Shown in pieces: positions 1,909 to 12,960 of a stretch of 13,108 bases of DNA. The DNA comes from Tannerella sp. Lineage in GTDB: Bacteria > Bacteroidota > Bacteroidia > Bacteroidales > Tannerellaceae. Location: positions 1-13,108 of the forward strand of contig JAISTJ010000205.1 of the NCBI GenBank assembly GCA_031272655.1. The letters run 5' to 3'. Positions within the stretch are counted from its first letter, which is position 1, and each line of letters begins with the position of its first letter. Below the pieces are notes generated by a model that was not told where the DNA came from, ran no database searches, and saw only the letters and a program-made list of their open reading frames with translations. The translations under genes were made by a program, and so were the position numbers.

Positions 1909-1979
1909 TATCATGCCCTTACCGGCAGTTGCTTTGGTCAAATCCAAATTATAAGTAATTAACTTATAAATAAATGATT

Positions 1980-4268
1980 ATGAAAAGGAAATACTTTTAC
2001 ATACTGGCCGCGCTTTTGATAGCTGCATGCACCACAACTATCGTATCGCACGGAGATGACGAAGACCAACCGGCAACCGTCAGCGTCAATAAACTGAACT
2101 TTGTGTCAGACCTTTCGGCGCAGCAGTTCGCGATAAAGAACGAAAGCAGCGTACCGGTATCGTATTCCGTCACCTCAAACAAGGACTGGATAACGCTGAA
2201 AAGCGGCTCGTCGTCTGCCGTCGCTGCAAAGTCTGCATCAGGCGCCATTGACGTCGGCGGCTCGGTGGTTATCATTGTCGTCATTGACCCGTCCGGGCTG
2301 TCTAAAGGCACCTACACAGGCACGATTACGATAGATGTTGACGGCACAAAATACGCCATATCGGTAACCATAACAGTTGATGATGTTGCAGTTTCAGGCA
2401 TATCCCTCGACCGCACGACACTCGCCTTGAAGCCGGGCGAAACCGCGACCCTGCAAGCAACCGTATCTCCCTCAAACGCTGTAAACAAGACAGTTACGTG
2501 GACTTCAAACAGTTCGGCAGTAGCCACCGTTGACAATACCGGCAAAGTAACCGCCATCAAGGAAGGCACGGCAGTAATCACAGCCAAAGCAGGCGAAAAA
2601 ACAGCCACATGCACAGTAACGGTTGCTGCTGCGACAGTTGCCGTAACCGGAGTTTCGTTGAATGTAACCACTCTTGCATTGACAGTCGGCGAAAGCGCTA
2701 GCCTCACTGCGACCGTTATGCCGACAAACGCAACAGACAAAACCGTAACATGGACGTCAAGCAATTCCGCCGTAGCCACCGTTGACGCAACCGGCAAAGT
2801 AACATCCAAAACCGTAGGCACAGCCACTATCACCGCCACGGCAGGAGGAAAATCAGCAACCTGCGTTGTAACGGTCAATAATAGTACGATAGCCGTAACT
2901 GCTATAACTATCAGCAATTCCACCCTCGCGTTGAAAGAAGGCGAGTCGGCAACGCTCACGGCAACCGTTACTCCTTCGAATGCGACCAATAAAACGGTTA
3001 CATGGACGTCAAGCAACACCGCGATTGCCACCGTTGATGCTAACGGCAAAGTGACTGCCGTTGCAGCAGGAACAGCAACAATCACCGCTGCAGCCGGAGG
3101 AAAATCGGCAACCTGCACGGTAACGGTTACAGCAAATACGGTAGCCGTAACCGCCGTAACGCTCAATCAGACAACGCTTGCGTTGAAGACAGGCGAAACC
3201 GCTACTCTCACAGCGACGGTTACGCCGGCAAACGCGACCAATAAAACGGTTACCTGGACGTCAAGCAACACCGCGATTGCCACCGTTGACGCCAACGGCA
3301 AAGTTACTGCCGTCAAGGAAGGCACGGCAGTAATCACAGCCAAAGCAGGCGAAAAAACAGCCACGTGCCCAGTAACCGTTACTGCGGCAACCGTTGCCGT
3401 AATCGGAATTTCGTTGAATATAGCAACTCTTTCATTGATAGTTGGCGAAAGCGCTACTCTAACAGCAACCGTTACCCCAACAAACGCAACCGACAAAACC
3501 GTAACATGGACGACAAGCAATTCCACCGTAGCCACCGTTGACGCCACCGGCAAAGTAACTGCCATAACTGTAGGCACAGCCACTATCACGGTAACGGCAG
3601 GAGGAAAGTCGGCAACCTGCGTTGTGACGTCTATCGGTGAATATGTTTGGGATGGGGCATCCACTGTAGTTATCAATGGTGTTACTTGGGCTACCTGCAA
3701 TGTGGATATGCCCGGCACATTTGCCTCCAGCCCCGACGTTCCCGGTATGTTCTACAAATGGAACAGCCTAATCGGTTGGAGCGCAGAAGACCCGTTAAAG
3801 GACAGCAATGGCGGCACGGCATGGGACGTTCGTAATCTATCCCCTCCAACCTACACAAACGCCGGCAGATGGCAATACTCCCCCTGTCCATTGGGGTTTC
3901 ACGGTCCATCTAGAGAAGAATACGAAAAACTATTGTCAGGAGCAAACTATAAATGGACTACCTACAATGGTATGTCCGGCGGGTTGTTTATTGATAAAAC
4001 TACATCACGTGCTGTGTTCCTGCCTGCTGCTGGCTATCGCGGCATCTACGACGAAAGCTACCATTTAGTCATTTACCCTACGCTCAACTACGTCGGCACG
4101 CAGGGATTCTACTGGACGAGTGAATTCTTTAGAAAAGATTATTACCCGTACACTGGTAGCTGCATCTACTATATTACCTTCCGCAGTGTCGGCTGGTCCA
4201 TGAGAGGAGGCTTATGGATTGAAGGTTACTTGGGCTTCGCCTTTTCAGTCCGGTGCGTGCAAGATTAA
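1980..4268 (+). CDS. lipoprotein with BACON-like domain, five BIg2 repeats and FISUMP C-type-lectin-like domain
   Basis: A 762-residue surface lipoprotein. MKRKYFYILAALLIAAC is a lipoprotein signal with Cys17 as the acylated residue, so I start at 1980 rather than at 1974, which would add Met-Ile. Residues 33-133 (DWITL, GTYTGTITI) resemble a BACON-type beta-sandwich. Five bacterial Ig-like (BIg2) repeats of about 80 residues follow at about 136-215, 220-299, 304-384, 388-468 and 472-550, each with TVTWTSxxxxxATVD and GxATITA. Residues 553-762 form a Fibrobacter-succinogenes major paralogous domain (NGVTWATCNVDMPGTF, FLPAAGYRG at 681-688, YWTS, closing FSVRCVQD), which has a C-type-lectin-like fold. 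The likely role is adhesion or ligand binding outside the cell. The gene is more G/C-rich than its neighbours, and the variable-looking last 45 residues suggest a DGR target. Confidence 0.85.
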   Translation: MKRKYFYILAALLIAACTTTIVSHGDDEDQPATVSVNKLNFVSDLSAQQFAIKNESSVPVSYSVTSNKDWITLKSGSSSAVAAKSASGAIDVGGSVVIIVVIDPSGLSKGTYTGTITIDVDGTKYAISVTITVDDVAVSGISLDRTTLALKPGETATLQATVSPSNAVNKTVTWTSNSSAVATVDNTGKVTAIKEGTAVITAKAGEKTATCTVTVAAATVAVTGVSLNVTTLALTVGESASLTATVMPTNATDKTVTWTSSNSAVATVDATGKVTSKTVGTATITATAGGKSATCVVTVNNSTIAVTAITISNSTLALKEGESATLTATVTPSNATNKTVTWTSSNTAIATVDANGKVTAVAAGTATITAAAGGKSATCTVTVTANTVAVTAVTLNQTTLALKTGETATLTATVTPANATNKTVTWTSSNTAIATVDANGKVTAVKEGTAVITAKAGEKTATCPVTVTAATVAVIGISLNIATLSLIVGESATLTATVTPTNATDKTVTWTTSNSTVATVDATGKVTAITVGTATITVTAGGKSATCVVTSIGEYVWDGASTVVINGVTWATCNVDMPGTFASSPDVPGMFYKWNSLIGWSAEDPLKDSNGGTAWDVRNLSPPTYTNAGRWQYSPCPLGFHGPSREEYEKLLSGANYKWTTYNGMSGGLFIDKTTSRAVFLPAAGYRGIYDESYHLVIYPTLNYVGTQGFYWTSEFFRKDYYPYTGSCIYYITFRSVGWSMRGGLWIEGYLGFAFSVRCVQD
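4110..4264 (+). other. putative DGR-type variable region in the lipoprotein gene
   Basis: From the YW codons (4110-4115) to the stop, the lectin-like end is unusually rich in Phe, Tyr, Gly, Ser, Cys and Ile encoded by NNC or NNT codons. That is the residue set made when AAY codons of a template are randomised. It closes with ttcagtccggtgcgtgcaag (4244-4263), a G/C-rich segment repeated with one change at 5746-5765. This fits a variable region ending in an initiation-of-mutagenic-homing site. No template repeat or reverse transcriptase is in the window, so this rests on composition and the shared end. Confidence 0.4.
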
Positions 4269-4704: not shown

Positions 4705-5499
4705 ATGTTTATCCAAGAGAGAGCAAAAAAGGAACTGTCAACATCAAGAAATGTCTTTTTCTCTGATGTTATTATGAATATGCATGAGGACAAACGATAT
4801 GAGTTTTACGTACTAATAATAAAGTATTTAGAGCAACATTGTCCGAATAATTTGCGAGACATAAAAGCGTTATTCCCAAACATTGATAAATCTTACCATA
4901 CTATCAAGACCAATAATTCGGTTATGATAATCTCAAGGCAACAAAAAGAAAACAATCCCGTTGATACAAAGAACGTAACAACAGATAAAGATGAATTCAA
5001 ACGTCCGATAGTTTTCATTTCATATTCGCATGATAATGAACAGCACCAGTCCTGGGTGAAAAATTTAGCCGACAAACTTATTGGGCATGGAGTGCAAGTA
5101 TTGTTAGATATTTATGAATTAAGCGTCGGGAAAGATATTCCACATTTCATGGAAAAATCTGCTAATGCAGATAAAGTAGTTTTAATACTAACTCCAGAAT
5201 ATAAAAGAAAAACGGAAAACAGAGAAGGCGGTGCCGGTTACGAGGCTCAAATCATAACATCTGCATTATACGATAAACAAAATAGTGATACATTTATACC
5301 GGTTATACGCGGCAGTAAAGAGAGTAGCGTTCCTGTTTTTATTAAAAGCAAAATGTTTATTGACATGAGTGATGACAGTAAATTTGAGGAAAGATTTAGT
5401 GATTTATTGTATGGAATATTTGACGTGTCGCAATCAGACCGTCCTGCTTTAGGCGAAATACCAGAATCTATTTTGTTGAAACTAAATAAAAGGAAATGA
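4705..5499 (+). CDS. SEFIR (TIR-like) domain protein, N-terminus frameshifted off
   Basis: A 264-residue ORF. Residues 1-70 are a helical region (MFIQERAKKELSTSRNVFFSDV) that belongs to a domain whose beginning lies in another frame upstream; the Met at 4705 is probably internal. Residues 100-205 form a SEFIR domain: RPIVFISYSHDNEQHQSWVKNL, then VQVLLDIYELSVGKDIPHFMEK, VVLILTPEY, and GGAGYEAQII. SEFIR is related to TIR. Bacterial TIR/SEFIR proteins act in anti-phage abortive infection, usually by degrading NAD+, and a stand-alone bacterial SEFIR defence protein has been described. Glu180 or Glu138 could be functionally important, but I cannot assign the catalytic residue. The protein is cytoplasmic. 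Its stop lies 1 nt before the next ORF. Domain assignment is confident; function is inferred. Confidence 0.8.
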   Translation: MFIQERAKKELSTSRNVFFSDVIMNMHEDKRYEFYVLIIKYLEQHCPNNLRDIKALFPNIDKSYHTIKTNNSVMIISRQQKENNPVDTKNVTTDKDEFKRPIVFISYSHDNEQHQSWVKNLADKLIGHGVQVLLDIYELSVGKDIPHFMEKSANADKVVLILTPEYKRKTENREGGAGYEAQIITSALYDKQNSDTFIPVIRGSKESSVPVFIKSKMFIDMSDDSKFEERFSDLLYGIFDVSQSDRPALGEIPESILLKLNKRK

Positions 5500-5818: not shown

Positions 5819-6340
5819 ATGGCAACTCAAAGAGTAATAAACTGGATTAATAGAAAATTTTCTGCGTATCGTAGTAAAAATGATTTTGAAGAAATGGAAA
5901 GTTTTTGTTTGTTGTGGAATGTCTTTGAAAAGGAAGCAGGAAACGGTCAAACAACATCACTGGGACTAAGAAGGATAGAAACTTTCATTTCCAATGTTAA
6001 TATTAGCAACCATCAAATAATAAAAGATGGCTTCGATTTTTTCAAACGACGTTATATTAATATTAATACAGGAAGTACAAATAGAAATTTCGATACACTG
6101 TTTAGTAGAACACCAAAAAAAACAGAGAAGAACTATAAGGATAGATTAGAAGTATTTCTTACTAACAATAATGCATCAAAGAAAGATATGATACTTGGCT
6201 TGTCAATTATCGCTTACCGTATTCGTAATAATTCTTTTCATGGAACAAAAGGCTTGGATGAAATAGTTACACAACAAGACACTTTCAAACACTTGAATGA
6301 TTTTCTAATGGAGGTTTTGACGGGATTCAACTTAATATAA
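5819..6340 (+). CDS. HEPN-like protein 3 (RNNSFH motif, Apea-like)
   Basis: A 173-residue Asn/Lys-rich protein of about 25% aromatic-plus-basic character, all helical by appearance. Near the end is IAYRIRNNSFHGTKGLDEI, with Arg136 and His141 as a HEPN Rx4H motif. The RIRNNxFHG form recalls the Apea-like HEPN family found in phage-defence genes. The following helix (TFKHLNDFLMEVL) fits the last HEPN helix. No signal peptide or other domain is visible. It is the last + strand gene before a 637-nt gap and begins 42 nt after the FISUMP fragment behind an A/T-rich leader. RNase or sensor function is inferred. A partner toxin or antitoxin is not evident. Confidence 0.65.
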   Translation: MATQRVINWINRKFSAYRSKNDFEEMESFCLLWNVFEKEAGNGQTTSLGLRRIETFISNVNISNHQIIKDGFDFFKRRYININTGSTNRNFDTLFSRTPKKTEKNYKDRLEVFLTNNNASKKDMILGLSIIAYRIRNNSFHGTKGLDEIVTQQDTFKHLNDFLMEVLTGFNLI

Positions 6341-6737: not shown

Positions 6738-6766
6738 GGATTGCTTCACATTCGTTCGCAATGACG
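6738..6766 (+). repeat. dispersed repeat copy (GGATTGCTTC...CGCAATGACG)
   Basis: ggattgcttc at 6738 and cgcaatgacg ending at 6766 bracket a short variable centre. ATTGC and GCAAT form an imperfect inverted repeat. The same frame of sequence occurs at 10576-10608 and, incomplete, at 10613-10636. Such elements are common intergenic repeats in many genomes. Confidence 0.6.
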
Positions 6767-6774
6767 GGAGCTGG

Positions 6775-6802
6775 GTAGGGACGTATCGCGATACGTCCCT
6801 AC
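6775..6802. repeat. perfect 28-nt palindrome
   Basis: gtagggacgtatcg (6775-6788) is followed directly by its exact reverse complement (6789-6802). It has no loop, so it could form a cruciform or be a protein-binding site or part of a mobile repeat. It sits 8 nt from the dispersed repeat copy. Confidence 0.85.
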
Positions 6803-6848: not shown

Positions 6849-6894
6849 AAAAAAAATGTAACGGCTTCGCTTTGTGAAAAAGGGAAGCCGTTAC
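6849..6894 (-). terminator. intrinsic terminator of the outer-membrane protein gene
   Basis: On the minus strand gtaacggcttc (6894-6884) pairs perfectly with gaagccgttac (6868-6858) around a 15-nt loop, followed after one base by eight T's (complement of 6849-6856). It lies 84 nt beyond the stop of the outer-membrane gene and should end the minus-strand operon. It is also positioned to prevent minus-strand read-through into the left block. Confidence 0.85.
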
Positions 6895-6977: not shown

Positions 6978-8789
6978 TTACCTGTAACGTTTGTTGCACT
7001 CGGGACAGCCGTCGGAATTCATAACCCGGACAGGCGGGCAAGGCTTGTCCTTCGTTGGGACGCAGACGGCTTTTTTGCCTCCTATGCCGAAACCTATACC
7101 GATCCTCAAACCGACCGCAAACGGACGGACGTCATTGATTGCACCTGTACGAAGGAGGCTGTTTGGAGTATATTCAAGCGGAAAGTACTTATACTGAACA
7201 AGATACTTGTCTGCTTTTGCAGGCTCACTGTAGATATTGTTAAGACCGTAATCCACATAGACGCCTGTATAGACAGAGTTTTTGCCGCCTGAAATCTTCC
7301 ACTTGACACCACCTTCAAACGCCGCTAAAAACGCCGTTTTATAAGTGATGTCGTAATCTTTCTTCTTGTTTGTGTAAGTGCCGAAGCCGTACTCGTCCGT
7401 ATAAACACGTTCCGAAGCCGGATCATAGCCTGTTATAGTAGCAGAACTTATTGTTTGTGAGGAAGTTACAGATAACGGCAAACCGATTTTACCACCTGCG
7501 CTCAGGTAAACATAAGTAGATTTCGCCACAGGTATCTGCCAGTCGAGCATTAAAGGAATCTGCAAGAACAACGCACTCTGAACTTCTTCCAGATCTTTAA
7601 AACTTGAACGGATAACAAATTCGGATTCATCATCTACAACAGGATTTTTATGAACGGTAAGATCTTCAGCTGCCAATTCTTTAACAGCAAACGAAGAACC
7701 GTACAATCTGCCTTCAAGACCGACATGGAAACCGAAGCTGCGGTTGAAGAAGTGTCGAAATCCGAAACCGAAGTCGCCTTCAAATCCCGATGAAATCGTC
7801 CCTTTGTTGAGGTTGTACCTCATATCGGACATACCGCCGCCGGCTTGGATATAGAACTCGCTTGAGTAGTCGCCGGATGCGGACGTTCTGACCTGCGGTC
7901 TGCTGCCAACGGGCGTCAAAGCGCCGTCCATCGGTGTGGCGTTATGCCAGTTAGCGCCTTTACCTACGCGGGACAAATACCATTTACCGTCTTCCTGAAC
8001 TATCAATCCTGCAAGTTGCATATCAATCCTGCCGACGTTGACGACCGGTATTACGCATACTCCACCAAGGAAATTCTTGGGAAAATCGGGAGGAGTAACC
8101 GGCAACACGCCTACTCCATGAGTAGCAAGCAGTGCGTCGCGCTGTGCAAAGATAGTAACTTCGGATGCGGGCTGCTGGCTTAACTGCTGGTCGGTAGCAA
8201 GCCAGACAATCCATGCCTGATCAAGGCTAAGACCGTCATAAACGCTCAGACCGTTCTGAAAATAGAAGGAATTTTCTATTCCATAAACCATCTTCGGGTG
8301 GATCATACTGTAGTCATACAGGTCGGACGAGAACAAAGTGTAGTTAAACCGCTCAAGTTCACGGTATTCGACAGCTGAGAGAGTAGGAATATAGATACTC
8401 TTGCAGTCGAACATCTGAAATTTCTTATCGTAGTTCCATGGGCGGTAAGACCTGTCGGTGGTATAGTAACCGCACTGCACCTTGACGCCGAAACTGTAGA
8501 TGGAATCGCCGAAATGGCATCCGTTATTCCATCCGTAATAGCGTCCGGTACCGCACTCACGCAACTGATACGACGAACGGATAATGAGCAACGCATCTTT
8601 CATCGCGCTCTCTACCTGATCCCGCTGCGGACTAATCATCGGAGCCTCACCAGCCGGAGGCTCCGTGATTATCTTAATGACTTCTATCGGTTGGGGTTCT
8701 TGTTTAACTTCCTGTTTATCAGCTTTTTTCTGTGAGCTAACCAAGCCAACACTCAATAGAAATATTGTTAGAAATAATAACTTTTTCAT
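6978..8789 (-). CDS. outer-membrane beta-barrel protein with novel N-terminal region
   Basis: A 603-residue exported protein. MKKLLFLTIFLLSVGLVSSQ is a clear signal peptide, so the start is 8789; the upstream in-frame ATG at 8837 would bury the signal and overlap the protease gene. Residues 21-50 are a Lys/Glu/Pro-rich linker. Residues 55-300 (QRDQVESAMKDALLIIRSSY ... GGVCVIPVVNVGRIDMQLAG ... GKWYLSRV) form a region I do not recognise. From about 311 to 570 alternating strands rich in Gly and aromatics (YIQAGGGMSDMRYNL, FGFGFRHFFNRSFGFHVGLEGRLYG, RPFAVGLRIGIGFGIG) indicate an outer-membrane beta-barrel. The tail (571-603) has four cysteines. It starts 22 nt after the protease gene, so it is co-transcribed and may be the outer-membrane partner or substrate of the protease. 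Confidence 0.75.
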   Translation of the reverse strand: MKKLLFLTIFLLSVGLVSSQKKADKQEVKQEPQPIEVIKIITEPPAGEAPMISPQRDQVESAMKDALLIIRSSYQLRECGTGRYYGWNNGCHFGDSIYSFGVKVQCGYYTTDRSYRPWNYDKKFQMFDCKSIYIPTLSAVEYRELERFNYTLFSSDLYDYSMIHPKMVYGIENSFYFQNGLSVYDGLSLDQAWIVWLATDQQLSQQPASEVTIFAQRDALLATHGVGVLPVTPPDFPKNFLGGVCVIPVVNVGRIDMQLAGLIVQEDGKWYLSRVGKGANWHNATPMDGALTPVGSRPQVRTSASGDYSSEFYIQAGGGMSDMRYNLNKGTISSGFEGDFGFGFRHFFNRSFGFHVGLEGRLYGSSFAVKELAAEDLTVHKNPVVDDESEFVIRSSFKDLEEVQSALFLQIPLMLDWQIPVAKSTYVYLSAGGKIGLPLSVTSSQTISSATITGYDPASERVYTDEYGFGTYTNKKKDYDITYKTAFLAAFEGGVKWKISGGKNSVYTGVYVDYGLNNIYSEPAKADKYLVQYKYFPLEYTPNSLLRTGAINDVRPFAVGLRIGIGFGIGGKKAVCVPTKDKPCPPVRVMNSDGCPECNKRYR

Positions 8790-8811
8790 ATTATTGAATA
8801 TTAAAAAGTTA

Positions 8812-10476
8812 TCAATAAAGCGCAGATATCGGAACAACTAAACCTGTAGATCTACCGCCACCGCTTGAAATAATGCCTACAACAACCATGTTACCGGTGT
8901 TATCGGTATAGAATACGGGGCCGCCCGAACAACCGCTTTCCGCACCACTTGCAGTTGTGTAAATAAGCCCATTATTCAAACCTTTGGCCGAAGTTGTAGC
9001 AGTTGATATTATTGGAGTGAAGTTTATAATCTCTTCATCAGTTGCCGCCGAACCGAAAGGATAACCGAGAATGACTAGGTCAACTCCGCGATCCAACGAT
9101 TCTGCCGCGTTTATATCAATTTTTAATCCGCCTTTGTGATTAGTCTTGACATACGCCCAGTCATGCCCGATGGTTTCGTCAACAAGGAATTTCTTTCTAT
9201 CAATATAGACGCCATAATCAACATCATCGCGGCGATTAACTTGAAATTCTTCATTTGTGAACTGCAACTGTTCATAAACGTAAGATGAAGGAGATACGGC
9301 CGAGAAATGAACGATTATTCTTCCACCGCTTCTAACATGCTGCTTAGCTTCCTGTATAAACCTGTAATACTTAAGGACATCTGCTTCCTGACATTTCGGA
9401 CATTTTATATCAGACTTCAACAAAATTGATTTTGTCATCCATGGTTCAACAACGTGTCTTGCCGTAACCAAACGGCCGTCTTCCAACAGAAATGCGCTTC
9501 CCGACCACTGTATTGCAGGATCAACAATACGTTTTACATTTCCGTTAGCCTTTTTCAACTCAATATATGTAGTACGAATATAGTACACATAACGGGAACA
9601 GCCATCAATAGCCGGATTATTAAATTTAGGATTTACAGTGCCCGAACCGCTCTTTTTAGGTTTGCGTTTCAAAGCGCTCCAAATTTTGTTTACATCAGTC
9701 CACAAACTGTCTGTTTCATGCTGTAACTCCACTTTAAGCGTGTCCAAGTCGCTTTCCATGCCATTGAGTCTATTTTCAAGCTCATCAATTTTGGCCAGAT
9801 TATCAGCGATTTGCGAACGCAAGTTTTCGTCCTGAGCCTGCAGGTAGTTGTAGTTGTCGAGAGCGTCCTGTTCGATCTGTGCAAAATGCTCTTCGGTTTG
9901 TTTGTTCTCGTAGATTTCCCAAGCGAGGATGCCTCCGATGGTTAGTAGAAGCAGGATTCCAAGGATAATCAGCGCTGTTTTGTATGGGCGGATAGCCTGA
10001 TCCCAGAAAAGGCCGAGGCGGTCAGTGATCCTGCCGAGGTTTTCCCTGTATCCGGCGCCGTCAGAAGATGCAGGAGGCGGAATGATGAAGCCCATGCGCG
10101 GTCCGCGCAGTGAGAGCTGTATCTCGTCGCCGTTCTGCAAATAGTAGTAATCAACGACTTTCTCGCCGTTGACGAACGTCGGATTGACATCCGACAGATG
10201 TACAAGTTTCCACTGATCGCCCTCACGAACGATAGCCGCATGACGGCGGCTGACCGTCGGGAAAGACGCGTCGTCGAACCTTACCTGACAATTGGAATCG
10301 CGACCAAGGAGTGCGTTGTCAACGATTATTGTCTGCGTTTGACCTCTTCGATAATACCTCGAATTGTCTTTGTGTTCCAGCATAAAATACGGTTTCCCGT
10401 TGCCGAAAACGGCGCCCAGTCCGGCGCCAACTGTTCCTGAAAATGACCTTGTATTAGGTCTTGTCTGTTGAGCCAT
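8812..10476 (-). CDS. FHA domain - transmembrane - coiled coil - trypsin-like protease
   Basis: A 554-residue protein that spans the inner membrane once. Residues 48-128 are an FHA domain with a complete phosphothreonine site (LLGRD at 57-60, VSRRH at 75-79, VNG at 102-104). A hydrophobic helix, ALIILGILLLLTIGGILAW (168-186), follows, then a Glu/Gln/Asp/Leu-rich coiled coil (about 190-268) and a Ser/Gly linker. Residues 295-554 form an S1/trypsin-fold protease with His341 (TARHVV), Asp439 (HDWAYVK) and Ser517 (GCSGGP), a complete triad. One CPKC pair sits at 359-362. FHA domains are normally cytoplasmic, which places the protease in the periplasm; this topology is inferred. It starts after a 215-nt repeat-bearing gap and is followed 22 nt later by the outer-membrane gene. 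It could be a DegS-like stress protease gated by phosphorylation. Confidence 0.85.
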   Translation of the reverse strand: MAQQTRPNTRSFSGTVGAGLGAVFGNGKPYFMLEHKDNSRYYRRGQTQTIIVDNALLGRDSNCQVRFDDASFPTVSRRHAAIVREGDQWKLVHLSDVNPTFVNGEKVVDYYYLQNGDEIQLSLRGPRMGFIIPPPASSDGAGYRENLGRITDRLGLFWDQAIRPYKTALIILGILLLLTIGGILAWEIYENKQTEEHFAQIEQDALDNYNYLQAQDENLRSQIADNLAKIDELENRLNGMESDLDTLKVELQHETDSLWTDVNKIWSALKRKPKKSGSGTVNPKFNNPAIDGCSRYVYYIRTTYIELKKANGNVKRIVDPAIQWSGSAFLLEDGRLVTARHVVEPWMTKSILLKSDIKCPKCQEADVLKYYRFIQEAKQHVRSGGRIIVHFSAVSPSSYVYEQLQFTNEEFQVNRRDDVDYGVYIDRKKFLVDETIGHDWAYVKTNHKGGLKIDINAAESLDRGVDLVILGYPFGSAATDEEIINFTPIISTATTSAKGLNNGLIYTTASGAESGCSGGPVFYTDNTGNMVVVGIISSGGGRSTGLVVPISALY

Positions 10477-10575
10477 AATTGTTTAAATTTTTAAATGGTT
10501 TAACATAAAATCCAATTTTTTTAGAATTTTCGTTGTAAATTAATAAATATTGTTTATAAAATCTTTTGTTTTAGT

Positions 10576-10608
10576 AGATTGCTTCAGGCTAAAGCCTTCG
10601 CAATGACG
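10576..10608 (+). repeat. dispersed repeat copy (AGATTGCTTC...CGCAATGACG)
   Basis: agattgcttcaggctaaagc continues to cgcaatgacg ending at 10608. It has the same ends and orientation as 6738-6766 with a different centre; the centre ggct/agcc is itself self-complementary, so the element can fold into a hairpin. It lies between the kinase and protease genes, without removing either. Confidence 0.65.
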
Positions 10609-10612
10609 AGCC

Positions 10613-10636
10613 GGATTGCTTCACTGCCTCCGCAAT
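10613..10636 (+). repeat. incomplete dispersed repeat copy
   Basis: ggattgcttcactgcctccg followed by caat repeats the element just upstream but lacks the closing gacg. Two copies side by side suggest local insertion or duplication. Confidence 0.5.
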
Positions 10637-10650
10637 AAGCCTCCAAACTC

Positions 10651-10678
10651 TTAATTCTTAATTCTTAATTCTTAATTT
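10651..10678. repeat. 7-bp tandem repeat (TTAATTC)
   Basis: Three TTAATTC units and one TTAATTT follow each other 13 nt beyond the kinase stop, on the 3' side of that gene. It is simple-sequence DNA, likely variable in copy number, with no assigned function. The rest of the 10477-10691 gap is A/T-rich. I found no clear TAnnTTTG promoter element for the protease gene in it. Confidence 0.8.
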
Positions 10679-10691
10679 GTAATTAAGCCAG

Positions 10692-11966
10692 TCAATATCC
10701 TTCCGCTCTAAGAGCCGTCGCTCCGAGGGTGATGATGTCGCCGGGGAGCAGTAGGGCGCCGTTCTTATCCGCCTTTGCGGAATTGACGTAGGTGCCGTTG
10801 TGCGAGTAGCGCCATTCCCTTGGCGCGGACTTGTCCCATTGCCCGTCGCGGACATACCAGTTGCGGCTGTCGGTGTCATACTCCAGCGTGCATTGCTTGC
10901 GGGAAATATAGCCATCCTGATTGCCTGTGATAGAGATACGGTTGTCGGTAACGCCATCGGCACGCCCCATTGTTAAGACGCATTTTTTGCCGTTAATCAT
11001 ATCATTTAGTTTAAACGACTTACCGTATTCATCCCCATAAAGCACCTTGAGCGCCAAGCCTTTCCTGACCGGCTGCACCGACGGATACCGCCAAGAAGTG
11101 GCTTCATCGGTTGAAGGCGGCGTCAGTTCGAGCGCACAGTCAGCCGTTTGCAGCCTTTTCCGGTAGTCGGGGACGAGACATCCCTCAATGACAGGAAGGA
11201 AAAGATTGCCGACAGGACTGCTTTTGAGCAGCGTCCTGTCCCAGTCGCCCGCCTTGCCGCGCTGTTTATACTTAACCAGATCCCCCGGCTCACTCAGTCT
11301 GCCGAACGGAAGCTGGCCTGTGATGATTTCAAACATCGTTACGCCGAAAGAGAAGATGTCGGTGGAAGGCAGCAGGATAGCGTCGCTGTCGCCTTTGACC
11401 TGCTCGGGCGACATATAGGCGTAAGTGCCTACAACTTCCTTTTTCATGCCCCATCTACGCTTTTTTCCGCCCGTACAGTCGCCTGAGGTGCCGAAATCGC
11501 TTAGCGCCGCTGTGCCGTTAGATTTGAAAAGAACGTTTTCGGGTTTCAGATCTCGATGGACTATCCTGTGCCGGTGAAGATCCCTCAACCCGCCGAGTAT
11601 CTCACGCGCCGCTTTCGCCAGCAGATAGACATCGCTGCAACCGGAAAGCCGCCTCAAATTGCCGTTCGGACAGTGTTCTATCACCATAAAAGGATTGTTC
11701 ATGATGTAACCTGTTGTGAGTGAACGGACAATATACGGGCTGTTGATCTGCCCCGTCTCGAAGTCTGCTTCAAAACGTTCTACCAACTTTTTCCGTACTA
11801 CAGGAGGGAACTCCCAGAGTTTGAGAATCTTAAGCGCATAACTCCTGTCGTAAGCGTCCGTTACCCTATAGACATTTCCGAAAGAGCCTTCGCCAAGCGT
11901 AGATTCTACGCGGTATTCCCCGATGTAATCTCCACTTTTGAAATCACAGCGTTCCGATGCTTCCAT
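10692..11966 (-). CDS. Ser/Thr protein kinase with C-terminal FHA domain
   Basis: A 424-residue Hanks-type kinase. Residues 13-285 contain the P-loop GEGSFG (25-30), the ATP-anchoring Lys46 (ALK), the catalytic HRDLKPEN (137-144), DFG (157-159) and SPE (186-188), so it should be active. There is no membrane helix, which makes it cytoplasmic. Residues 310-424 form an FHA domain (MGR at 333-335, ISRKQ at 354-358, NGTYVN at 390-395); the usual His of SRxH is Gln358. Kinase-FHA fusions often bind their own autophosphorylated threonines or recruit substrates. The start follows the zinc-ribbon FHA gene by 19 nt; AAGGAG (11987-11982) overlaps that stop but is 15 nt from the ATG. A PP2C-type phosphatase is not in the window. 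Confidence 0.92.
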   Translation of the reverse strand: MEASERCDFKSGDYIGEYRVESTLGEGSFGNVYRVTDAYDRSYALKILKLWEFPPVVRKKLVERFEADFETGQINSPYIVRSLTTGYIMNNPFMVIEHCPNGNLRRLSGCSDVYLLAKAAREILGGLRDLHRHRIVHRDLKPENVLFKSNGTAALSDFGTSGDCTGGKKRRWGMKKEVVGTYAYMSPEQVKGDSDAILLPSTDIFSFGVTMFEIITGQLPFGRLSEPGDLVKYKQRGKAGDWDRTLLKSSPVGNLFLPVIEGCLVPDYRKRLQTADCALELTPPSTDEATSWRYPSVQPVRKGLALKVLYGDEYGKSFKLNDMINGKKCVLTMGRADGVTDNRISITGNQDGYISRKQCTLEYDTDSRNWYVRDGQWDKSAPREWRYSHNGTYVNSAKADKNGALLLPGDIITLGATALRAEGY

Positions 11967-11985
11967 TATTCAACTGTTTAACTCC

Positions 11986-12672
11986 TTAAAATTCAGGGAT
12001 TGTGAGGAATAATAGCTTAGTTGCGCCAACGGTGATGATGTCAAGATTTTTCAGTTCGCCTTCGTCCTTGAGCTTGCCGTTGATGAGCGTACCGTTGCTC
12101 GACTGCAAGTCCTTGAACCTGAACTTTTTATCGGCAGCTCTGTAGAGAATCACACAGTGTTGCTCCGATACCTGTCCGTCGCCCTGAATAGACGTCTTAC
12201 CCGTTTTGCGCCCGATGATGTTCCGCCCCTCATAGATGGGGAACGAAAAACCATTCGGATTTTGTGAGTATGAAACTAATATACCCACAAGTTTCTTACC
12301 TACTGAGGATTTGGCTGTTGATTGCCTTTCGGCGGAAATGCCGGTAGCTTCTTCCGAAAATTTGCCCGTACCGGTAACTGTCTCATTACCATAACTATAG
12401 GCATGAGATGTATCCGGAACAGTTTCTTTAGGGATTTTGCCGGCCATTTCTGCGCCGCAGTTGGGACATTGCTTGGCTGTAGGTCTGACGATATAGCCGC
12501 ACTTGGGGCATTTGACCCCCGTGCCGGAAAGCGAATCGTCAACTGTAGTGCCATGAGCAGCCGCAGAACGTCCGTAAGTCTCCTCTGTGGACCCCAACGG
12601 AGCCCCGCATTTTAAACATACCTGATTGTTGCCGGGATTATTCCACCCGCACTGCTTGCATCTGTTATTCAT
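11986..12672 (-). CDS. double zinc-ribbon protein with C-terminal FHA domain
   Basis: A 228-residue cytoplasmic protein. Two zinc ribbons precede the FHA domain: Cys5/8/19/22 (CKQCGW ... CLKCGAPLG) and Cys55/58/69/72 (CPKCGYIV ... CPNCGAEM). Residues 78-125 are a Ser/Thr-rich, likely flexible linker with many threonines that could be phosphorylated. Residues 128-228 are an FHA domain (IIGRK at 152-156, VSEQH at 168-172, SSNGTLING at 191-199). The Arg of the SRxH motif is Glu170, so phosphothreonine binding may be altered. It is the first gene of the minus-strand block, 19 nt ahead of the kinase, and is the natural candidate for a kinase substrate or adaptor. A promoter-like element lies 26 nt upstream of the ATG. 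Confidence 0.88.
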   Translation of the reverse strand: MNNRCKQCGWNNPGNNQVCLKCGAPLGSTEETYGRSAAAHGTTVDDSLSGTGVKCPKCGYIVRPTAKQCPNCGAEMAGKIPKETVPDTSHAYSYGNETVTGTGKFSEEATGISAERQSTAKSSVGKKLVGILVSYSQNPNGFSFPIYEGRNIIGRKTGKTSIQGDGQVSEQHCVILYRAADKKFRFKDLQSSNGTLINGKLKDEGELKNLDIITVGATKLLFLTIPEF

Positions 12673-12929: not shown

Positions 12930-12960
12930 CGCCATTGCGAAGGATTTTTACGCAATGGCG
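12930..12960 (-). terminator. hairpin 3, possible transcription end after aspartokinase
   Basis: cgccattgcg (12930-12939) pairs perfectly with cgcaatggcg (12951-12960) around an 11-nt loop, beginning 4 nt after the minus-strand aspartokinase stop. The position suits a terminator or mRNA 3' end protector, but the bases after it on the minus strand lack a U tract. Confidence 0.5.

Follow-up and report, generated by a model that had tools for sequence, protein, structure and literature searches.

The four genes that lie consecutively on the minus strand of the window, by which we mean the whole analysed stretch of 13,108 nucleotides, very probably form part of a larger, conserved and uncharacterised module that recurs in the Bacteroidales and apparently has no name. 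They encode a zinc-ribbon FHA protein (ZnFHA), a kinase-FHA protein (KinFHA), a membrane-anchored FHA-protease and a protein in which a secreted domain, here called X, is fused to an outer-membrane beta-barrel. We see an even chance that the window holds one copy of a Bacteroidota module that connects transmembrane phospho-signalling to regulated proteolysis. Among the open-licence papers listed, no title or abstract start described or named a kinase-FHA-protease module of this kind, in agreement with the initial annotation of this DNA, in which the row was not recognised as a named system.

Gene content and layout of the window

The window is an entire contig (C11) of a 2.18-Mb genome that is 72.5% complete. 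The four open reading frames lie where the initial annotation had placed them, on one strand (Table 1), and Pfam matches above the curated cut-offs support all four protein types: Zn_Ribbon_1 (6.1e-13) and FHA (8.3e-11) in ZnFHA, Pkinase and FHA in KinFHA, FHA and Trypsin_2 in the protease, and OMP_b-brl_2 (27.6 against a cut-off of 27) in the barrel protein. The residues K46 and D139 of KinFHA, in which D157 is also intact, and H341, D439 and S517 of the protease are the expected catalytic ones. The strong terminator that had been proposed after the last gene is likewise present: a hairpin, inside a 68-nt stretch that folds at -22.3 kcal/mol (z -7.02), precedes a U run. The promoter-like element proposed before the first gene was not recovered: the site list of the window holds no sigma-70-like minus-strand site upstream of 12672, and the promoter pattern of Bacteroidetes, TTTG-N19-25-TAnnTTTG, has 0 matches in the window.

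Table 1. Features of the four-gene row, numbered from the first nucleotide of the window.
Feature	Positions	Strand	Description
Module genes, four ORFs	12672-6978	minus	ORF list and Pfam
ZnFHA	11986..12672	minus	Double zinc ribbon and FHA, 228 aa, no TM
KinFHA	10692..11966	minus	Hanks-type kinase and FHA, 424 aa, no TM
Intergenic gap KinFHA/protease	10477..10691		215 bp, short copies of dispersed repeat
FHA-TM-coiled coil-trypsin protease	8812..10476	minus	554 aa
Signal peptide and X domain	7881..8789	minus	Residues about 50-300 of the fusion protein
OmpA-like outer-membrane beta-barrel behind X	6978..7880	minus	Residues about 304-603 of the fusion protein
Intrinsic terminator hairpin and U run	6858..6894	minus	Folding; inverted repeat I6

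The gaps between the four genes are, in order, 19, 215 and 22 bp. The second is long compared with the median of 23 bp in 53 adjacent kinase-FHA/protease pairs, so that a reading of the row as two transcripts is possible from its spacing. A promoter-like match begins at 10695, near this gap, and the repeats within the gap match D13 (82% over 17 nt) and I4 (89% over 18 nt). No PP2C or second kinase gene adjoins the row in the window; the contig stops at 13108, and a neighbour could lie beyond it.

Conservation of the module in relatives

A scan of a genome collection returned 179 proteins related to the FHA-protease. The loci of the 80 best, from 77 isolates, were examined with their flanks; 79 loci were counted, L043 being left out since it has no protease ORF over 400 aa. 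A run was taken as the same-strand genes around the protease with gaps under 250 bp. Where a run reaches the locus end, a missing gene was not counted (PP2C in 3, the second kinase in 12, KinFHA in 4 and ZnFHA in 5 of the 79 loci), and for X no loci but L044 and L078, both at contig ends, were set aside. The window has a kinase and FHA proteins with no adjoining PP2C, yet among these best 80 of 179 relatives a PP2C gene is part of the run in 76/76 testable loci. A second kinase, for which a kinase-domain hit was required, occurs in 66/67 testable loci, KinFHA in 71/75, a ZnFHA-profile protein upstream of the protease in 66/74 and X in 61/77. At least two CxxC motifs are found in 65 of the 67 ZnFHA-profile proteins of the loci.

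The typical order in relatives is KinFHA-protease-X-PP2C-second kinase. Directly consecutive genes are seen for FHA-KinFHA-protease in 46 of 79 loci, for protease-X-PP2C in 59 and for protease-X-PP2C-second kinase in 34, and labelled genes are separated by a median of 11 bp (346 gaps). The gene order is therefore not confined to the window. The check on conservation across Bacteroidetes that the initial annotation had suggested does not refute the gene set, which recurs in 79 loci, but its distribution is patchy and not general to Bacteroidetes: with the genome studied here included, the protease was found in 3/296 genomes of a phylum sample, 12/393 of an order sample and 10/98 of a family sample. 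The genes do travel together, as all 12 order-sample genomes with the protease lie within the 14 of 393 that have KinFHA at E 1e-60, the genome studied here being in both sets. Protease and PP2C also occur in two genomes whose relationship to this one goes no further than the phylum, and one of these has ZnFHA, KinFHA and a second kinase in the same row. Full modules occur in Barnesiella sp. An22 (L032) and Palleniella intestinalis strain PINT (L060).

Hydropathy, calculated with a crude script of our own, gave no TM segment in 71/74 ZnFHA and 76/79 KinFHA proteins and one TM segment in 71/82 proteases, 72/75 PP2C and 87/93 second kinases; in the last three, the segment is mostly single and placed after the signalling domain. 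The phospho-signalling gene set of the initial annotation thus stands as a conserved, same-strand set in which the kinase and FHA parts are soluble, the FHA-protease sits in the membrane and further partners belong to the envelope, but its list lacked PP2C, the second, transmembrane kinase and X. Accessory genes of the runs look secreted more often than opposite-strand genes (138/172 vs 63/189, again with a crude script of our own). When 102 accessory genes hand-picked from the 172 were scanned beside 102 control genes drawn at random from 161, BACON domains were found in 25/102 accessory genes vs at most 1/102 controls, and OMP_b-brl_2 in 5/102 accessory genes. The upper bound for the controls follows from their 25 commonest families, which reach down to a count of 1 and do not include BACON. 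In 11 loci a 246-aa gene stands close to the protease, from a family with one member that matches MotA_ExbB.

The FHA-protease and KinFHA

The structure model of the protease comprises a GarA/OdhI-like FHA domain (about 30-131), a single TM/coiled-coil helix (162-268) and an HtrA-like protease domain (284-554) that matches the folds of HtrA1/DegQ/DegS and Rv3671c, has the His-Asp-Ser triad of a trypsin fold and has a predicted position on the periplasmic side. The disordered N-terminal tail is conserved. In 123 sequences, a set that counts two copies of this genome twice, T5 occurs 112 times, R10 118 times, S/T11 121 times and S/T15 120 times; the corresponding counts in the 82 locus sequences are 68, 62, 78 and 81. 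The triad is complete in 90/123 database and own sequences, 73/82 locus sequences and 84/96 when added genomes are included. Proteolysis, to which the path in the initial annotation leads, cannot be a requirement of all copies, since several lineages have lost the triad, among them that of one of the copies in this genome. Among the matches listed (120 of 622), one relative (P0004) is 65% identical to the window protease.

The KinFHA of the window departs from most of its relatives in two places. Position 358 of its FHA domain is Gln (H in 75/77 and Q in 2/77 sequences), and the conserved activation-loop Thr of the R-M-T motif is missing from its aligned place. In the activation-loop comparison, from which the unparsed loops of L062, L080 and L089 are left out, L046 and L095 have Ser in place of this Thr. 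A joint loss of PP2C and the activation-loop Thr was considered and found not to be specific, as the kinase-FHA proteins of L069, L077 and L086 have activation loops without the conserved Thr and their loci keep PP2C.

X and the fused barrel

X is predicted to be a secreted family of pseudoproteases with a chymotrypsin fold. A signal peptide was called in 59/61 X proteins with a crude script of our own, and there was no Pfam match in the X proteins looked at. The fold search assigned X to the chymotrypsin fold, which ruled out our earlier candidate of an unknown fold; the protease matches of Foldseek itself were at E 0.0034 or worse. The triad is absent: no alignment column has His in over 60% of the 111 X sequences, K/R stands at the His-equivalent position in 53/111, and among the Asp and Ser columns some are conserved. 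Profile comparison gave weak support for shared ancestry of X and the protease (probability 16.7%, p 0.0015).

The occurrence of X is associated with an intact protease triad. With the window counted as having X by fusion, 94 copies could be scored (the duplicates L138, L140, L147 and L150 were left out, and no protease row was obtained for L149 and L153), and X accompanies 69/82 intact-triad vs 1/12 broken copies (Fisher p 3.7e-7, ignoring relatedness). It is absent from 13/82 intact-triad copies, and L082 is an exception to the association. The tree yields four independent pairs when only supported branches are used and six when all are, with 2.8 in the same direction, none in the opposite direction and p about 0.25; these are too few for significance, and we treat the link as suggestive rather than proven.

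The last protein of the window row has both a signal peptide and, behind X, an OmpA-like barrel domain, as expected of an outer-membrane barrel. This outer-membrane partner of the initial annotation is local, with a homologous barrel gene in 1/80 loci and two database proteins. A search with the single sequence returned two relatives, both covering the barrel half, and among the loci scanned the barrel half is matched in one, L019; the barrel was accordingly rejected as a conserved module part. A same-genus relative keeps X and the barrel as separate genes.

Copies in the same genome

The genome has 14 FHA hits over five contigs. Two further cassettes, on C42 and C224, contain ZnFHA, KinFHA, FHA-protease, PP2C and second kinase genes; their KinFHA proteins are 49 and 50%, and their proteases 31 and 41%, identical to those of the window. 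The C224 protease has Ile where the catalytic Ser is expected, and the last protein of this cassette has weak, below-cut-off matches to BACON and OMP_b-brl_2. The C42 copy is flanked by what we take from the translations to be housekeeping genes (deformylase, RuvX, ThrS). X was found on C11 only, and PP2C_2 matches on C150, C224, C36 and C42 with none on C11. A recent duplication within the genome is rejected, since the three proteases group with different relatives (window and L020 with a support of 89, below the star of the tool).

By its sequence, the window copy appears as a reduced version of the module, without an adjoining PP2C or second kinase gene and with the barrel fused to X. It may rely on parts encoded elsewhere, or it may be specialised or in decay, as the missing neighbours, the missing activation-loop Thr and the one replaced FHA His could indicate.

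C150 and C36 hold other groups of FHA, PP2C and kinase genes. The row on C150 (L009, 6342-11089) encodes two FHA proteins, PP2C, a third FHA protein, which carries a gag-asp-type aspartyl protease domain, and a kinase; it is a second way in which this genome joins FHA to a protease.

Proposed mechanism

To our knowledge, few outputs are established in the Bacteroidales for Hanks-type kinases, PP2C and FHA proteins. In the mechanism that we propose, with a confidence that ranges from tentative to about even, the second kinase would sense the state of the envelope or the cytoplasm; in the window, KinFHA would act alone or with partners in trans. The kinases would phosphorylate the conserved Ser/Thr tail before the FHA domain of the protease, or other module proteins, and FHA-phosphothreonine binding could assemble or cluster the FHA-TM-protease, as in GarA/OdhI tails and in TssL-Fha of the type VI secretion system (T6SS). 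The long helix would pass the assembly state to the periplasmic protease, for which X, as a dead chymotrypsin-fold relative, might be a cofactor, adaptor, inhibitor or substrate. The protease-X pair may process outer-membrane or surface proteins, and PP2C would reset the phospho-switch. In the window, the fused barrel would tether X to the outer membrane, and the protease-X pair would then bridge both membranes.

More tentatively, and at somewhat less than even confidence, we suggest that the module stands for a bacterial type of transmembrane signalling that is new as a class. Cytoplasmic Thr phosphorylation, read by the protease's own FHA domain, would here switch a periplasmic protease-pseudoprotease complex on or off and so control envelope proteolysis from the inside out, with branches in which X is welded to the outer membrane or the protease is a dead scaffold. 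Such a module would be a concrete and physically linked output, its FHA domain and its protease lying on opposite sides of the membrane. It also ties a secreted pseudoprotease family without a Pfam entry to kinase, FHA and protease genes, its X-barrel fusion predicts an outer-membrane partner, and its natural dead-protease variants make the mechanism testable.

The PpkA-PppA-Fha system of the T6SS has in common with the module a Ser/Thr kinase, an FHA reader and, in the relatives, PP2C, whereas its output is a secretion machine and that of the module a protease. TssB/VipA (PF05591) had 0 matches in the 72.5%-complete genome studied here, and of 14 control genomes only E. coli matched. Thr14 of TssL is bound by Fha in Agrobacterium (PMC3953482), and a conserved Thr in the N-terminal tail of an inner-membrane protein is common to TssL-Fha and the module. 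In GarA/OdhI the FHA protein is free, while in the module it is fused to a TM protease, and the OdhI model gave 37.4 bits against a cut-off of 200. The tail and its Thr are conserved in the module protease, and the tail may be phosphorylated and bound by the FHA domain as in GarA/OdhI; solved FHA structures with phosphorylated tails include Rv1827 (pThr22) and Bdellovibrio DgcB.

Alternative explanations

It is possible, if rather unlikely, that the module is an envelope quality-control or surface-display device, in which the protease and X would act like DegS or MarP, the phospho-arm would set the level only, and barrel and BACON proteins would sense. HtrA/DegS and MarP-type proteases share a membrane-anchored trypsin fold, predicted to be periplasmic, with the module protease, and its matches to HtrA1/DegQ/DegS and Rv3671c, the fusion of X to a barrel in the window and the linker between TM and protease (108 residues in the window, median 82) fit such a device. 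The module protease, however, has an FHA domain where HtrA has PDZ: the window protein ends with its protease domain and has no PDZ match up to E 0.1, and it scores 16.7 bits on the MarP model NF033740 (NCBIfam) against a cut-off of 250. Moreover, FHA domains and kinases are conserved together, which argues that phosphorylation is central, as in the mechanism that we prefer.

We regard it as improbable that the module serves defence or conflict, as a kinase-phosphatase system similar to KKP or to the trypsin-bearing conflict systems of PMC7159879, with the protease as effector. Its attraction lies in the two kinases and PP2C of the relatives, which recall KKP, where PfkB carries an FHA domain (PMC11341870), so that two kinases, one with FHA, and PP2C are common to both; trypsins described in conflict systems are mostly inactive (PMC7159879). 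The patchy distribution and the bSEFIR and HEPN genes on the opposite strand of the window are also in keeping with it. PADLOC returns 34 kinase-type models for the window KinFHA, with mad6 the best at 6e-47, and RT-Protease_XI for the protease (2.9e-10); these matches may reflect shared kinase and trypsin domains, and they keep the explanation alive.

The KKP order of PP2C and then two adjacent kinases is, however, not that of the window, which has one kinase and no PP2C, and Pfam found no cold-shock domain in five kinases (the window KinFHA, the second kinases of C42 and C224, and kinases of C36 and L033). The module differs from KKP in gene order and membrane topology, and it adds an FHA-protease, X and secreted proteins. 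Only 1/102 accessory genes match PADLOC at 1e-10, and these genes are largely secreted, with BACON domains, so that the scan gave no support for a defence island. The predicted periplasmic protease and the position of the C42 copy between presumed housekeeping genes also speak against defence. Control flanks include restriction-modification and other defence-model matches, and single loci may therefore lie near defence genes.

That the window copy is a non-functional remnant which has lost PP2C, the second kinase and the activation-loop Thr, as its 215-bp gap and dispersed repeats might suggest, seems very unlikely to us given four open frames, intact kinase and protease catalytic residues, a strong terminator, the existence of the protease relative P0004 and four PP2C genes elsewhere in the genome that could act in trans.

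Other features of the window

The plus strand of the window, opposite the module, encodes an HEPN pEK499_p136 protein (859-1326) and two proteins of 191 and 173 aa without a Pfam match (1333-1908 and 5819-6340). Between these lie a large protein with five Big_2 Ig-like repeats, whose N-terminus resembles a lipoprotein signal by eye (1974-4268), and a TIR/SEFIR protein that matches the PADLOC bSEFIR model at 6.6e-67 (4705-5499). A perfect 28-bp palindrome is located at 6775-6802, and imperfect repeats of the type ATTGCTTC...CGCAATGACG at 6740-6766, 10570-10608 and 12930-12956 bracket parts of the module.
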